This document shows positions 43,462 through 52,529 of a stretch of DNA of 64,000 bases, piece by piece. Where the stretch lies: NCBI GenBank assembly GCA_009995045.1, contig JAACQG010000013.1:21833-85832 (forward strand), given 5' to 3'. Position numbers and translations under genes: made by a program. Position 1 is the stretch's first letter; every line of letters starts with the position of its first letter. Origin of the DNA: Alphaproteobacteria bacterium (lineage in GTDB: Bacteria > Pseudomonadota > Alphaproteobacteria > Micavibrionales > Micavibrionaceae). The notes under the pieces are model-generated. The model saw only the letters and a list, made by a program, of their open reading frames with translations. It did no database searches and was not told where the DNA came from.

Positions 43462-44274
43462 TTATCGTGTCATCAAAACGTGATAAAAATGATACTCATC
43501 AGATGTACCATTCGCACCATTTGTATCGACCGCGCATTTAACACAGCCCTGCGGCGCGGGACGAGGGGCCGAAGTATTCGGATCATGTTCAAAGCTGGTC
43601 GCGCTCTCATCCATCGTGTTGATCGTGCTATAAAACTGACGCGCATCATCAAAACGTGCAATCGCACCCGCATTCACGCATGATCCACCATTGGTGGCTG
43701 AGGCGCTGCTCGTGCCATCATCATCCATGGTGCCATTTTGCCCATTAAGCGCATTGACCTTGTCGCAAAAAGCCTTCGTTACATGTGGCAACACTGCAAC
43801 CAATTCCGCACGATCACTGCGCCCCATGCCGGGCACATGCGTGCTGGCGTAAAATTCCCACGGACTTCCGTCATTCACGCCTTTTGGTGGCTCACGATAA
43901 TTTGCGCCGCCCCCCTCACGATCAAAAACCTGATCACGTTTATCGCTATCAGCCGCAAAATCGCCATAATCCGCATGTGCATCATAATGCGCAAAGCGAA
44001 TATCGCTCTCGCTGAAACCTTGTTGCATAATAAAAGCAACTGCGCGTTCCAATTCGGAGGCATAGCGCTGCACTTCACTGGCGCGTAAAACCAAAGCCTC
44101 GCCATCAATATTGCTGCCATCTGGGCGGTTCGAACGTGTCACCGCCGCGGTCAACAACCCAATCAATGCAATCGCAAGCAAAATCATGAATAGGACATTC
44201 CCGCGCTCGCCATGGCGCGGGTTATGATGATCGAAAGTGCGTTGAGTGGGAAGATGAGGTGCGGGCATACGCAT
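43462..44274 (-). CDS. Pseudopilin-like membrane-anchored protein (paralogue 1)
   Basis: A 270-residue protein with a basic N-terminus, then RHGERGNVLFMILLAIALIGLL at about residues 20-41, a pilin-like hydrophobic helix, and a large Gly/Asp/Asn-rich external part with several Cys. The end EYHFYHVLMTR closely matches the end of the protein encoded at 50383-51159, as does the GERG-x-x-LF start. The type IV prepilin Gly/Glu cleavage pattern is only loosely met. It begins on the last base of the carboxypeptidase gene, so the two are co-transcribed. Confidence 0.72.
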   Translation of the reverse strand: MRMPAPHLPTQRTFDHHNPRHGERGNVLFMILLAIALIGLLTAAVTRSNRPDGSNIDGEALVLRASEVQRYASELERAVAFIMQQGFSESDIRFAHYDAHADYGDFAADSDKRDQVFDREGGGANYREPPKGVNDGSPWEFYASTHVPGMGRSDRAELVAVLPHVTKAFCDKVNALNGQNGTMDDDGTSSASATNGGSCVNAGAIARFDDARQFYSTINTMDESATSFEHDPNTSAPRPAPQGCVKCAVDTNGANGTSDEYHFYHVLMTR

Positions 44275-47187: not shown

Positions 47188-47577
47188 ATGAACACATATA
47201 ACGACATAATACGCATGGACGAAGATGACGGCATCCAACACGGCGCGCCGCATGAGCCGGGCGAGGGCGAACAACAACCCGGCGACGATGCTGGCCTACT
47301 TCTTGAAGCACGTCCAAAAACCAAAAAACCATCCATGTATAAAGTCCTTTTGCTGAACGATGATTACACCCCGATGGAATTTGTCGTGCATGTGGTGGAA
47401 AAATTCTTCGCCAAAAACCGCGCAGAAGCGACCGACATCATGATGAGCGTGCACCGCCGCGGCGTCGGCATCTGCGGCGTCTTTACCTTTGAGATCGCCG
47501 AAACCAAAGTCGCCCAAGTCATGGACTTCGCCCGCGCCAACGAACAACCCCTCCAATGCACGATGGAGAAGGAATGA
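47188..47577 (+). CDS. clpS: ClpS adaptor
   Basis: Adaptor that delivers N-degron substrates (Leu, Phe, Trp, Tyr N-termini) to ClpAP. The 129 residues have a longer, Glu/Gly-rich N-terminal tail (about 1-45) than usual. The ClpS core follows: [24 protein letters not shown] with the substrate-pocket Asn-Asp-Asp and Met, and [20 protein letters not shown] with the ClpA-contact His. It heads the cluster clpS-DUF4265-clpA, and the aat gene that makes some N-degrons lies in the same window. Confidence 0.95.
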
Positions 47578-48047
47578 CACAAAATTCAGCAGACCAAGCT
47601 GAACACGTAAAGGTCGAGTTTCGTGTGCCAAATGAAGATGGCGGCGTTGATGTGGAAACCATGTGGGCGCAGCCACGCGGCGATGATCTCTATATGCTCG
47701 ACAACACACCATTTTACGCATATGGCATTTCAAACGAGGATATATTCCGCGCAAGCCATGAGCCAAACATGGAATTCCCTGTCTTTCACTCTATATATAA
47801 AAAATCAGGCAACCGAACATTACGCATTATGTTCACGCAAGACGAAGCAAAGGGATCAACATCGCAATCAACACTCGATTATTTAAACGAAATGGGATGC
47901 GCCTATGAGGGGGCAGATGCGTCATTTTATGCAATTACCATCCCCGCAGACACTGATTTATTTGAAATTGCGACCTTTTTAACGGACAATGAAATTATGT
48001 GGGAACATTCCGACCCCAAATACGACGATATTTACCCAAAAGGCTAA
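47574..48047 (+). CDS. DUF4265-like protein between clpS and clpA
   Basis: A 157-residue soluble protein. [21 protein letters not shown] followed by [17 protein letters not shown] matches the DUF4265 pattern, to which no function is assigned. It starts at ATG 47574, overlapping the clpS stop in ATGA with GGAGAAGGA just upstream, and ends five bases before clpA. It is therefore translationally linked to both, which suggests involvement in ClpAP action; this is inference. Confidence 0.8.
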
Positions 48048-48052
48048 AGCTT

Positions 48053-50386
48053 ATGCTCAGTAAAAACCTAGAACTCACCCTCCACCGCGCCCTTGGCGTT
48101 GCTCAGGAATATAATCACGAATACGCAACGCTGGAACATTTGCTCTTCGCCCTGATCGAAGACCAAGATGCGATGGCCGTTTTGCGTTCCTGCGGCATTG
48201 ATATGGAGACGCTCAAGGATCAACTTGCAACCTATATCAATAATGAGCTGAATTATCTCACCTCCACCGAAGCTGATGAAGCCAAGCCAACCACGGCTTT
48301 CCAACGCGTCCTGCAACGCGCCGCCATCCATGTCCAAAGCTCTGGCCGCGAAGAAGTCACAGGCGCAAATGTCCTTGTCGCCCTATTCAGCGAACGTGAA
48401 AGTCACGCGGTTTACTTCCTGCAAGAACAAGACATGACACGTTTCGACGCGGTGAATTACATCAGCCACGGCATCGCCAAAGTGCCATCACAAACCGACG
48501 GTACAAAAGCACCCCGCGGTGTGGATGAAGACGATGTCAAAGAAATCAAATCAGGCGCCGAAGCGCTGGACGCATACTGCGTAAACCTCAATGAAAAAGC
48601 CGCTGACGGCAAAATCGACCCGCTCATTGGTCGCGATAAAGAACTTGAGCGCGCCATTCAGGTGCTATGCCGCCGCTCCAAAAACAACCCGCTTTTTGTA
48701 GGTGATCCGGGCGTTGGTAAAACCGCAATCGCCGAAGGATTAGCGCTTCGCATTATCAACGAAGAAGTGCCGGAAGTTCTGTTCGATGCGACCATCTTCT
48801 CGCTTGATATGGGAAGCCTGCTCGCGGGCACGCGCTATCGCGGTGATTTCGAAGAGCGCATCAAAGCCGTGCTTAAGGAGCTAGAAAATATCGACGGCGC
48901 AGTGCTATTCATTGATGAAATTCATACCGTGATCGGCGCAGGCGCAACCTCTGGCGGCGCAATGGATGCGTCAAACCTCCTCAAACCCGCGCTTTCAAAT
49001 GGCTCGCTCAAATGCATGGGCTCAACCACATATAAAGAATACCGCAACCATTTCGAAAAAGACCGCGCGCTGGTGCGCCGCTTCCAAAAAATCGACGTCT
49101 ACGAACCTTCCATAGAAGATGCCATCGCAATCCTAAAAGGCCTGCGTCCGCATTATCAGGAATATCACGGCGTCGAATACACGGATGCCGCTCTCACCGC
49201 CGCCGTCAAGCTTTCCGATAAATATATGGGTGAGCGAAAATTACCCGATAAAGCCATCGACATCATCGACGAAGTGGGAGCGGCGCAAATGCTGGTCCCC
49301 GCCGATAAACGCAAAAAAATCATCACCGAAGAAGACATCGAAGGTGTCGTCGCCATGATCGCCCGCATCCCCGCTGCAAGCATGACCAAAGACGACAAAG
49401 CCGCGCTTAAAAATCTGGAGCGTGACCTCAAAACAATGGTTTATGATCAGGATATCGCCATCGATACGCTCTGCGATTCCATTAAACTGGCGCGTGCAGG
49501 CCTGCGTGATGCGGAAAAACCAATCGGCTCTTACCTGTTTTCTGGCCCCACGGGCGTTGGTAAAACCGAAGTCGCCAAACAACTCGCCAAGACTATGGGC
49601 ATTGAGCTTATTCGCTTTGATATGTCCGAATATATGGAGCGCCACTCCGTCTCACGCCTGATCGGGACACCGCCGGGTTATGTCGGTTTCGAACAAGGCG
49701 GCCTGATGACCGATAAAATCGACCAACATCCGCATTGTGTGCTGTTGCTTGATGAAATTGAAAAAGCCCATCCCGATTTGTATAACATCCTCCTGCAAGT
49801 CATGGATTACGGCAAGCTCACTGATAATAACGGCAAGAGCATTGATTTTCGCAATGTCATCCTCATCATGACCACCAATGCGGGCGCATCCGATATGGCC
49901 AAAACCCCTATTGGCTTTGGTCGATCCGTGGGGGATGGACAAGATAGCTACGCCGATAATGACGCCATCACAAAAACCTTCGCACCTGAATTTAGAAACC
50001 GCCTCGACGCGATAGTCCCATTCCAGAATCTATCCTTAAAAACCGTCGAACAAGTCGTAGAGAAATTCGTCGCCCAACTCGAAGGGCAATTGGCCGATAA
50101 AAACGTTCAGATCGAGCTATCCAATAAAGCACGCAAATACCTCGCCAAAGAAGGCTATGATCCATCCATGGGCGCACGCCCGCTTGGCCGCGTGATACAG
50201 GAAAAACTAAAACGTCCGCTGGCGGAAGAAATCTTGTTTGGAAAATTGGAAAATGGCGGCTTGGTAACCATCGATTTAGATAAAGATGGCGCGCTTGAAT
50301 TTAAATTCGAAACACCCACCGCGCCCACACATGAGCCAGAAAACGTTGAAGAAGGCAAAGACGAACCAAAACAAGCCGACGCCTAA
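48053..50386 (+). CDS. clpA: ATP-dependent Clp protease ATPase subunit ClpA
   Basis: Hexameric unfoldase that feeds substrates to ClpP. The 777 residues contain an N-terminal Clp_N domain ([18 protein letters not shown]), AAA1 with Walker A GDPGVGKT and [14 protein letters not shown], and AAA2 with GPTGVGKT and [11 protein letters not shown]. The typical ClpP-docking loop region and the C-terminal D2-small domain ([21 protein letters not shown]) are present. ATG 48053 is chosen over an upstream in-frame codon at 47999 lying in the preceding gene. The stop overlaps the convergent pseudopilin gene. Confidence 0.96.
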
Positions 50387-51159
50387 CGCGCGATCAAAAC
50401 TTGATAATAGTGAAAACTATTCGTTGGCGGGGATTGCGAACCTTCGAAACACCCTGACATTTTTCCAAACAGAGAGTTGCTACCATCTCCGCCGCCAGAT
50501 GTTGAGTCATTGGAAATTGAGTTGGCTTCCGCGTAACTGCCAGTAAAATAAGTGCTAATACTCCATGTGGCATAATCTTCTTTAGGGATATTATTGTTTG
50601 GTGTTAAAACACCGCTATTTTTTGCCAACTCTTTGCAAATTTCTTCTTTAACAAAGGGAATAAACAAAATAAGTGATTCATCGCTCGTTCCATTTGTGTT
50701 GCACGCAGCATCTGTAGCACTACCAACACCCAATATGCATATATTTCCAGTTATAAAAATTTTATCATAATATGTTGCTGAACTATGATTAGAATCTAAC
50801 CACTTAGGATCCAGGGAAATGTAATGAGAGCCAGCGCCTTTTTTAGAAAACACGTTGCATTGCTCATCACTTGGACTGTTAGGGTTTGCATATGTAGCAA
50901 GTATGTTGTTTTCAAAGCTAATCTCTGTGTCTTTGCAACCATTTGAAATGCGTAACATTTGAACCGCTTGCCGAATGCTTCGTCCATAATCAGAGATTTC
51001 ACCCGCATATAACTTGGCTCGCTCTTCGCCGATAATATCTGTGTTTCCCCCGCGCATCATGTCCGACACCACATAACCAAGCGCCGCAAACAAGGCAACA
51101 CCAATCAAAATAAAGAACAAAGCTGATCCGCGTTCACCGCGACGATAAATATGTTTCAT
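50383..51159 (-). CDS. Pseudopilin-like membrane-anchored protein (paralogue 2)
   Basis: A 258-residue protein with the same ends as the one encoded at 43462-44274: an N-terminal RRGERGSALFFILIGVALFAAL helix and a C-terminal [11 protein letters not shown]. The middle is Asn/Ser/Gly-rich with about six Cys and no similarity strong enough to see by eye. It is likely membrane-tethered with an exported domain. ATG 51159 is preferred to a GTG at 51174. The stop overlaps the clpA stop by four bases. Function unknown. Confidence 0.72.
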   Translation of the reverse strand: MKHIYRRGERGSALFFILIGVALFAALGYVVSDMMRGGNTDIIGEERAKLYAGEISDYGRSIRQAVQMLRISNGCKDTEISFENNILATYANPNSPSDEQCNVFSKKGAGSHYISLDPKWLDSNHSSATYYDKIFITGNICILGVGSATDAACNTNGTSDESLILFIPFVKEEICKELAKNSGVLTPNNNIPKEDYATWSISTYFTGSYAEANSISNDSTSGGGDGSNSLFGKMSGCFEGSQSPPTNSFHYYQVLIAR

Positions 51160-51208
51160 ATGATGATTATACACTGCATTTTAACGCATTTCATGGTTTA
51201 ATAAGACC

Positions 51209-52054
51209 ATGACAAATAATAATGCAATCACCGTATTAATTGCCGAAGACAACGACGTCAGCCGTGAAATGATGGCGGGTATCCTTGAAACAAAAGGCTA
51301 CACCATTATTCACGCAAGAGATGGCGGCAGCGCGATTGAAAAAATCCATGAACACAAAATCGATGTTGCATTGGTTGATATCAATATGGCGCCAAAGGGC
51401 GGCTTTGAATTCGTCAAACATCTTGTCGTAAAAGACATCAAACTGCCCGTCGCGGTTGTCACCGGCATCGACACAAGCGATGTCCTCATGGAGGCAAACG
51501 CCCTCGGCGTGCTGCAGGTCATCCATAAACCCATTACCCCCGAACGTCTGATCCAAAGCGTGCAACGCATGGCAAAAAGCATCGGCCTTAACCCCGAACC
51601 AATGGGCGTGAAATCCGTTAGCACACTGTTTTCTCATGAAGAGCTGATGCAAAAAGCCATTGAGATCGCAGAGAAAAACGTACAATTAGGGCGCGGCGGC
51701 CCATATGGCGCCATACTTGCGGATGCAAAAGGCAAAATACTCGGCCAAGGTGCAAATGGTATCAAATCACGCATCGACCCCATGGCACATGCAGAGGTCA
51801 TGGCCATACGCCAAGCCGCAGAACGCCTGGGCGCTACTGAGCTGAAGGACTGCACAATATATTGCTCAAGCCAGCCAACAAAAATCGGCCAAGCGTTAAT
51901 CGAATCTGTTGGAATTGGAAAAATCTATTACGGTCTATCGAATGAAGACGTGGCCGCCATACGCGGCACAGCAAAAACCAGCGCCCCCATTTGCGAACAA
52001 ATCTGCAAAGATGAAGCGTTGGCAATGTTTAAGGCCGCAAAACGACCTGAATAA
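51209..52054 (+). CDS. CheY-type receiver fused to a zinc-less guanine-deaminase-like domain
   Basis: A 281-residue fusion. Residues 6-122 are a receiver domain with acidic pair Glu13/Asp14, phospho-acceptor Asp57, Thr85 and Lys107. Residues of about 142-281 follow the guanine/cytidine deaminase pattern: GGPYGAILAD, then DPMAHAEVMAIRQAAERLGA (His194 and catalytic Glu196) and LKDCTIY. Where the family has a PCxxC zinc motif there is P223-T224-K225-I226-G227, so both zinc Cys are lost. The deaminase half should therefore be catalytically dead or changed and may act as a phosphorylation-controlled binding domain. Partner unknown. Confidence 0.88.
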   Translation: MTNNNAITVLIAEDNDVSREMMAGILETKGYTIIHARDGGSAIEKIHEHKIDVALVDINMAPKGGFEFVKHLVVKDIKLPVAVVTGIDTSDVLMEANALGVLQVIHKPITPERLIQSVQRMAKSIGLNPEPMGVKSVSTLFSHEELMQKAIEIAEKNVQLGRGGPYGAILADAKGKILGQGANGIKSRIDPMAHAEVMAIRQAAERLGATELKDCTIYCSSQPTKIGQALIESVGIGKIYYGLSNEDVAAIRGTAKTSAPICEQICKDEALAMFKAAKRPE

Positions 52055-52067
52055 AAAGACTTAAACC

Positions 52068-52529
52068 TCAAGCAAGCTCAAAGATCGCATCAATCTCAAC
52101 GGCAACGCCGCGCGGCAAATCTGCGGCGCTGACCGCGAAACGTGCGTGACGTCCCGCGTCACCCATCACTTCAACGAACAGATTGGATGCGCCATTAATC
52201 ACTTCTGGTTGATCCTTAAAATCAACAACAGCGCGAACAAATCCACCCAATTTAACCAAACGTTTAATCTTGCTCCAATCACCATCAACCGCGGCATTGG
52301 CCTGCGCTAAGATATTCAGCGCGCATGCTTTGGCGGCCTCTGCGCCTTGCTCAACGCTCAAATCTGCGCCAACACGACCCTGATGCATCGCTTCACCATT
52401 TAAAAATGGAATCTGCCCAGATATAAAAATCTGCTTCCCGCTGATTACATATGGCACGTAATTCGCCGCTGGTGCTGCCGCGCTTGGTAATTCCAAACCT
52501 AAAGATTCTAATTTCTCTGTAATGCTCAT
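52068..52529 (-). CDS. RidA family protein
   Basis: A 153-residue member of the YjgF/YER057c/UK114 family. RidA deaminates reactive enamine/imine intermediates made by PLP enzymes such as threonine ammonia-lyase, which is also encoded in this window. The pattern includes FISGQIPFLNGE, NILAQANAAVDGDW and the closing SAADLPRGVAVEIDAIFEL. The canonical Arg-containing RxxV segment is replaced by HARFAV near residue 132, so it may belong to a non-RidA branch of the family. AGGAAAG precedes ATG 52529. Confidence 0.88.
   Translation of the reverse strand: MSITEKLESLGLELPSAAAPAANYVPYVISGKQIFISGQIPFLNGEAMHQGRVGADLSVEQGAEAAKACALNILAQANAAVDGDWSKIKRLVKLGGFVRAVVDFKDQPEVINGASNLFVEVMGDAGRHARFAVSAADLPRGVAVEIDAIFELA

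Follow-up and report, generated by a model that had tools for sequence, protein, structure and literature searches.

Introduction

Among the closest known systems to the protein analysed here are two with a dead enzyme domain. In RssB of Escherichia coli, a receiver is joined to a domain of the PPM/PP2C phosphatase-type fold that lacks the active-site residues, and the protein acts as an adaptor of ClpXP (PMC7226468). ADAT3/Tad3 is a pseudo-deaminase subunit that has kept its zinc and lost the Glu (PMC8216470).

We describe a protein encoded in the window, the whole stretch of 64,000 nucleotides that was analysed, from a Micavibrio-like bacterium; in this protein a receiver precedes a guanine-deaminase-like domain devoid of its zinc cysteines. 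The protein resembles RssB in joining a receiver to a dead enzyme domain and in a link to a Clp unfoldase, here given by gene position only; unlike RssB, it has a different output fold, and the RssB profile matches its receiver only. Similarly to ADAT3/Tad3, the predicted output domain is a catalytically dead but retained member of the same deaminase superfamily, and it is the converse case, its zinc cysteines being lost and its Glu kept.

In the open-licence literature, judged mostly by title and the start of the abstract, we found no description of a receiver–deaminase fusion; the word deaminase is absent from the main text of an archaeal census (PMC5847659), and a search of the open-licence literature for pseudo-deaminases returned nothing. 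A receiver with a pseudoenzyme output is known from RssB, and for the deaminase fold in that role, as predicted here from sequence, we found no precedent in the open-licence literature.

Results

A complete receiver joined to a deaminase fold without zinc cysteines

According to the ORF list and Pfam, the open reading frame at 51209..52054 (+) encodes a receiver plus pseudo-guanine-deaminase response regulator of 281 amino acids. Pfam recognises Response_reg (PF00072) at residues 9-118 (51233..51562, +; E 7.3e-22) and dCMP_cyt_deam_1 at residues 143-242 (E 4.2e-17), both above the curated cut-offs. The receiver had been called complete in an earlier note on this DNA, and the column counts agree, with all five phosphorylation residues present: the acidic pair E13 and D14, the predicted phosphorylation site D57 (codon 51377..51379, +; Asp in 39 of 43 aligned family members), T85 and K107. 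The PF00072 match together with the acidic pair, Asp, Thr/Ser and Lys places the protein among the response regulators.

The guanine-deaminase-like domain spans residues 143-250 (51635..51958, +). The HAE motif is kept (His194, Ala195, Glu196; 51788..51796, +), embedded in D190-P191-x-A-H194-A-E196, while the stretch that replaces PCxxC reads P223-T224-K225-I226-G227 (51875..51889, +). Bacillus subtilis guanine deaminase (1wkq) matches with E 1.5e-17, and its PCPMC aligns with PTKIG of the window protein. The loss of both zinc cysteines beside a retained HAE, first noted from the letters alone, is therefore confirmed in the window as well as in this alignment. The C-terminal tail (51959..52051, +) is a homologue of the GuaD tail that, by alignment and last-residue counts, ends without the terminal Tyr. 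In contrast to the B. subtilis enzyme (PDB 1wkq/1tiy), the window protein thus has neither PCxxC nor the terminal Tyr and is fused to a receiver; it carries the fold and the family profile of the guanine deaminase/CDA superfamily but not the zinc triad (His plus PCxxC). Structure models were built on 8-9 sequences.

We note that two neighbouring classes do not accommodate the protein. A CpdR-type, receiver-only identity conflicts with the second conserved domain and with the NCBIfam CpdR profile, which scores 50.1 bits against a cut-off of 180. RssB gives the best NCBIfam match (60.5 bits; cut-off 329), which is confined to the receiver (residues 8-113); the protein is therefore no RssB member, and its output half matches deaminases rather than the PP2C fold. 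No kinase was recognised by eye in the list of ORFs from 44-60 kb of the window.

The zinc-less fusion is a conserved state of a clade

A profile search with the deaminase half gave a fusion-level match in 44 of the 105 genomes of the window's family (f1), with E-values from 3.3e-54 to 3.2e-77 in 43 of them and of 1.3e-39 in the divergent genome G119. The receiver lies on the same frame as the pseudo-deaminase in 43 of the 44; the remaining frame, in G102, is cut by the contig end. The earlier note had proposed examining close relatives for PCxxC, and the motif is missing in all 44: neither position holds a zinc cysteine in any of the 43 aligned members or in G102, which reads HAE and PTMMG, and a complete zinc triad occurs in 0/43 aligned members. 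The catalytic Glu196 is kept in every member (43/43 aligned, and G102), His194 in 42/43, with Phe in its place in G119. The Pro-Thr pair of the PTKIG segment is invariant, Thr224 being present in 43/43 aligned members.

Four pairs with dS < 0.8, three of which stem from one trio, give dN/dS values of 0.000, 0.014, 0.028 and 0.039 for the deaminase half and of 0.008 to 0.056 for the receiver. The table comprises 42 of 903 pairs (dS 0.05-1.5), and the pairs outside these four lie at 0.095-0.452, near saturation. On the substitution pattern of these few close pairs, the fusion is under strong purifying selection. In the careful tree, from which 19 of 89 rows were dropped as near-copies or long branches (including L082, L092, L148 and L155) and whose bootstrap had not settled, the pseudo-deaminase clade, represented by 36 of its 44 rows, is separated from the rest by a branch supported at 100/100. 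The cysteine loss in 44 members, this support and the low dN/dS in close pairs together argue that the pseudo-deaminase fusion is a clade-wide state and, as read from the sequences, a protein conserved in a form that has no zinc site. Since the domain is conserved across relatives despite lacking its zinc cysteines, the fusion probably acts in signalling rather than in catalysis. As a separate candidate, a pseudogene or an assembly error is ruled out by the low dN/dS and the clade-wide conservation.

Outside the order, 385 genomes of the class and 398 of the phylum, both even draws from larger groups and searched for the pseudo-fusion, yielded no match better than E 6.7e-37, which is the level of intact GuaD. 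Nine weaker matches from the family and order were read beyond the fusions, and all nine have HAE or HGE together with PCxxC.

Relatives with an intact zinc site

The order-level search covered 143 genomes. Nine genomes of family f3, which belongs to the same order, carry a Pfam-recognised receiver fused to GuaD with HAE and PCPMC complete (L028, L031, L105, L106, L107, L111, L112, L115, L117). These fusions share the domain order and the clpA locus with the window protein. However, their zinc triad is intact and the acidic pair of their receiver is broken, in 9/9 cases, the second acidic residue being Pro, Asn or Ala. About 80% of pseudo-receivers are non-acidic at this second position, according to PMC12632262.

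Five f5 proteins have a deaminase domain behind a receiver-like stretch. Pfam recognises a receiver in none of these N-terminal halves (0/5), which match the f1 and f3 receiver profile weakly (E 3e-11 to 1e-6); the zinc triad is intact in four of the five. In the fifth, L129 (G046:C63, 2258-3058, -), the motifs read KAV in place of HAE and PEPMS in place of PCPMC, with the YWAR segment kept. This protein is probably a second pseudo-deaminase. The careful tree places it with the intact fusions of f3 (97/83), and this grouping, together with the kept YWAR segment, suggests that its zinc site was lost separately from that of the window family.

HAE and CxPCxxC are both retained in 28/28 GuaD-like deaminases that stand alone in the order and class, and none of these 28 frames contains a receiver. 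The earlier note had held that relatives with intact zinc ligands would speak against a pseudo-deaminase. Among the 44 family members with the pseudo-deaminase none has them (0/44), whereas the f3 fusions, four of the five f5 proteins and the stand-alone GuaDs do possess them. We read these intact fusions, together with the clpA-linked stand-alone GuaDs, as indicating that the dead domain, judged by its sequence relatives, derives from a genuine guanine deaminase.

A complete receiver and a complete zinc triad do not occur together

Across 57 aligned fusions, not one has both the receiver site and the zinc triad complete. A complete receiver alone is found in 36, the zinc triad alone in 13 and neither in 8; this split follows a few clades, and the counts are not independent, reflecting a few events and not 57. 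The full-length alignment omitted G102 (cut by its contig end) and kept 145 residues before each deaminase domain, by which L133 lost its start. The f5 gaps at positions 13-14 are partly an artefact of this limit. When the f5 starts were placed by eye, no placement made both residues of the pair acidic, and the residue at position 85 depended on the alignment.

The order would thus show both halves of a trade, a live enzyme with a dead receiver or a live receiver with a dead enzyme. Because the two sites are never complete together, and because intact, dead and deaminase-less versions exist, these relatives amount to a natural experiment in which the step from a regulated enzyme to a signalling pseudoenzyme is directly testable.

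In the window's family itself, 7 of 43 members are without a complete receiver site (L024, L084, L025, L026, L086, L087, L088), and four of these have lost Asp57 itself. Consequently, as judged from these residues, phosphorylation control cannot be universal among members. The earlier proposal of a phosphorylation-controlled pseudo-deaminase is therefore borne out as regards a clade-conserved domain linked to a receiver, but not as a rule for every member.

All seven members with a broken receiver still keep the deaminase half, which bears on an alternative in which that half is a relic: the receiver would do the work by itself, in the manner of a CpdR-like single-domain regulator. The rest of the protein would then be an inert dimerisation handle in the course of being lost. 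The fusion is absent from 61 of the 105 family genomes. In eight of these that were examined, clpA was found in seven, with a single-domain receiver beside it in two (G060, G089) and none within the flank in five. In all, four genomes have a single-domain receiver next to clpA at the place that the fusion takes in relatives, namely G042 (f2) and G032, G060 and G089 (f1), with these receivers at L170 350-745 (-), L175 2148-2624 (+), L030 1498-1887 (-) and L029 1492-1881 (-). The receiver of G089 nests inside the pseudo-fusion receivers at 95/90, in a receiver tree that holds 22 of the 43 fusion receivers and carries a long-branch warning among the f5 rows. These observations are what a relic would leave behind. 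However, in close pairs the deaminase half and the receiver have similarly low dN/dS, 22 of 173 columns show no variation across 19 diverse members, and the deaminase half outlasts the receiver site in the seven members above; we consider the relic reading doubtful.

Order of events

The trees of the deaminase domains give no supported order for the deep branching. Approximately the same holds for the AU tests on the quick tree, which reject none of five groupings (pseudo-fusions with f3; all fusions; f5 with L129; f3 with f5; pseudo-fusions with L129). These tests therefore do not discriminate, and a single zinc loss for the pseudo clade and L129 stays compatible with them.

The simplest history, for which trees of such short domains are no proof, would be that a clpA-linked guanine deaminase gained a receiver, presumably early in this order, after which either the enzyme or the receiver decayed, depending on the line, and some lines lost the deaminase half altogether. 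In the f3 and f5 lines, the enzyme site would have been kept while the receiver decayed. In the window family, most members would have retained a competent receiver, and the deaminase, having lost its zinc, would have become a folded binding surface.

Proposed function and the old substrate pocket

We favour, with moderate confidence, the reading that the window protein acts as a response regulator. Its output domain would be a guanine deaminase that has lost both zinc and catalysis, probably serving as a phosphorylation-gated binding module. Phosphorylation of Asp57 would probably alter dimerisation or expose a binding surface to a partner, either another protein or a purine ligand occupying the former substrate pocket.

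The second kind of partner leads to a more particular alternative, in line with the nucleobase sensor suggested in the earlier note. Here the kept HAE, Asn and Pro-Phe pocket would bind guanine or a guanine nucleotide without zinc, gated by the receiver. In fact, a good part of the pocket persists despite the loss of the zinc site: H194, E196, D190 and P191 are kept, Asn183 is found in 37/43 aligned family members, and Glu196 stays even in G119, which has lost the His. However, these core residues may be retained for structural reasons, and two other positions have changed. The Trp of the YWAR segment is missing in 43/43 family members and present in 9/9 intact f3 fusions, and the C-terminal Tyr is found in 2/43 family members (missing in 41) against 9/9 of those fusions; both are residues that we take to have a role in guanine binding. 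The retained core thus speaks for the suggested sensor and these two losses against it, leaving nucleobase sensing unproven, and we regard a purine-ligand sensor as unlikely.

A zinc site rebuilt from H194 with C219 and C266 or H267, which would leave the protein a metalloenzyme, is highly improbable: the window protein does have four cysteines (C215, C219, C262, C266), but none of the candidate positions beside H194 is universal (C215 40/43, C219 37/43, C266 11/43, H267 23/43), L015 has H194 alone among the six Cys/His positions checked, in L021, L023 and L090 a single Cys accompanies H194, and G119 is without H194. Counted across members, no conserved set of other Cys/His emerges.

The locus and its link to clpA

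In the window, the genes follow one another as clpS (47188..47577, +; named from sequence, with a matching gene in related loci), a further ORF, clpA (47999..50386, +; named from sequence, its listed GTG start being mechanical), a gene for a pilin-like protein without Pfam match (50383..51174, -), the fusion, and a ridA-like gene (52068..52526, -; named from sequence). The conserved neighbours are clpA on one side of the fusion and ridA on the other. Since the pilin-like gene lies on the opposite strand between clpA and the fusion, the two do not share an operon in the window.

Among the 44 family genomes with the fusion, clpA is present in the fetched stretch of at least 23, ridA of at least 28 and either one of at least 33, most fetched stretches being only 1 to 1.5 kb; the pilin-like gene was matched in 32 of the 44. 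In L160, clpA lies about 4.5 kb from the fusion. Directly before the fusion, clpA is found in 9/9 f3 fusions, and it takes the same position before 5/5 high-scoring stand-alone GuaDs of another f3 genus. No clpA was seen near the f5 proteins in the stretches fetched. At class level, one of 17 GuaD loci read (G288, family f21) has clpA, GuaD and ridA together. Families f1, f2 and f3 thus share a link of the locus to clpA, which the earlier note did not mention; the adjacency may also reflect slow decay of gene order.

This gene position, together with the RssB precedent, is the basis of our most specific guess at a partner, the ClpA-ClpP protease or its substrates; a role of the fusion as a ClpA adaptor, with the Clp machinery as candidate partner, would be reasoned by analogy. 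Taken furthest, the guess becomes a new class of Clp adaptor, gated by phosphorylation and made from a guanine-deaminase fold without zinc, in which the former substrate pocket would still sense purine levels. We think this full combination quite unlikely. If it were true, ClpAP proteolysis would be coupled through one protein both to purine status and to a signal from a kinase.

Some further features of these loci deserve mention. A stand-alone guanine deaminase directly follows clpA in several alphaproteobacteria (L051, L103, L113, L119, L121, L155). Two adjacent clpA-like genes, one of them more divergent, occur close to the fusion locus or to its clpA in L160 (13844-18001), L163 (3-2800) and L173. 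According to Pfam, an AIM24 gene lies downstream of the f3 fusion in L046 and of the f5 proteins in L156 and L157. Finally, the window encodes two pilin-like proteins, the one next to the fusion (50383-51174, -) and another at 43462-44274 (-), and by eye both have one N-terminal membrane segment and similar ends.
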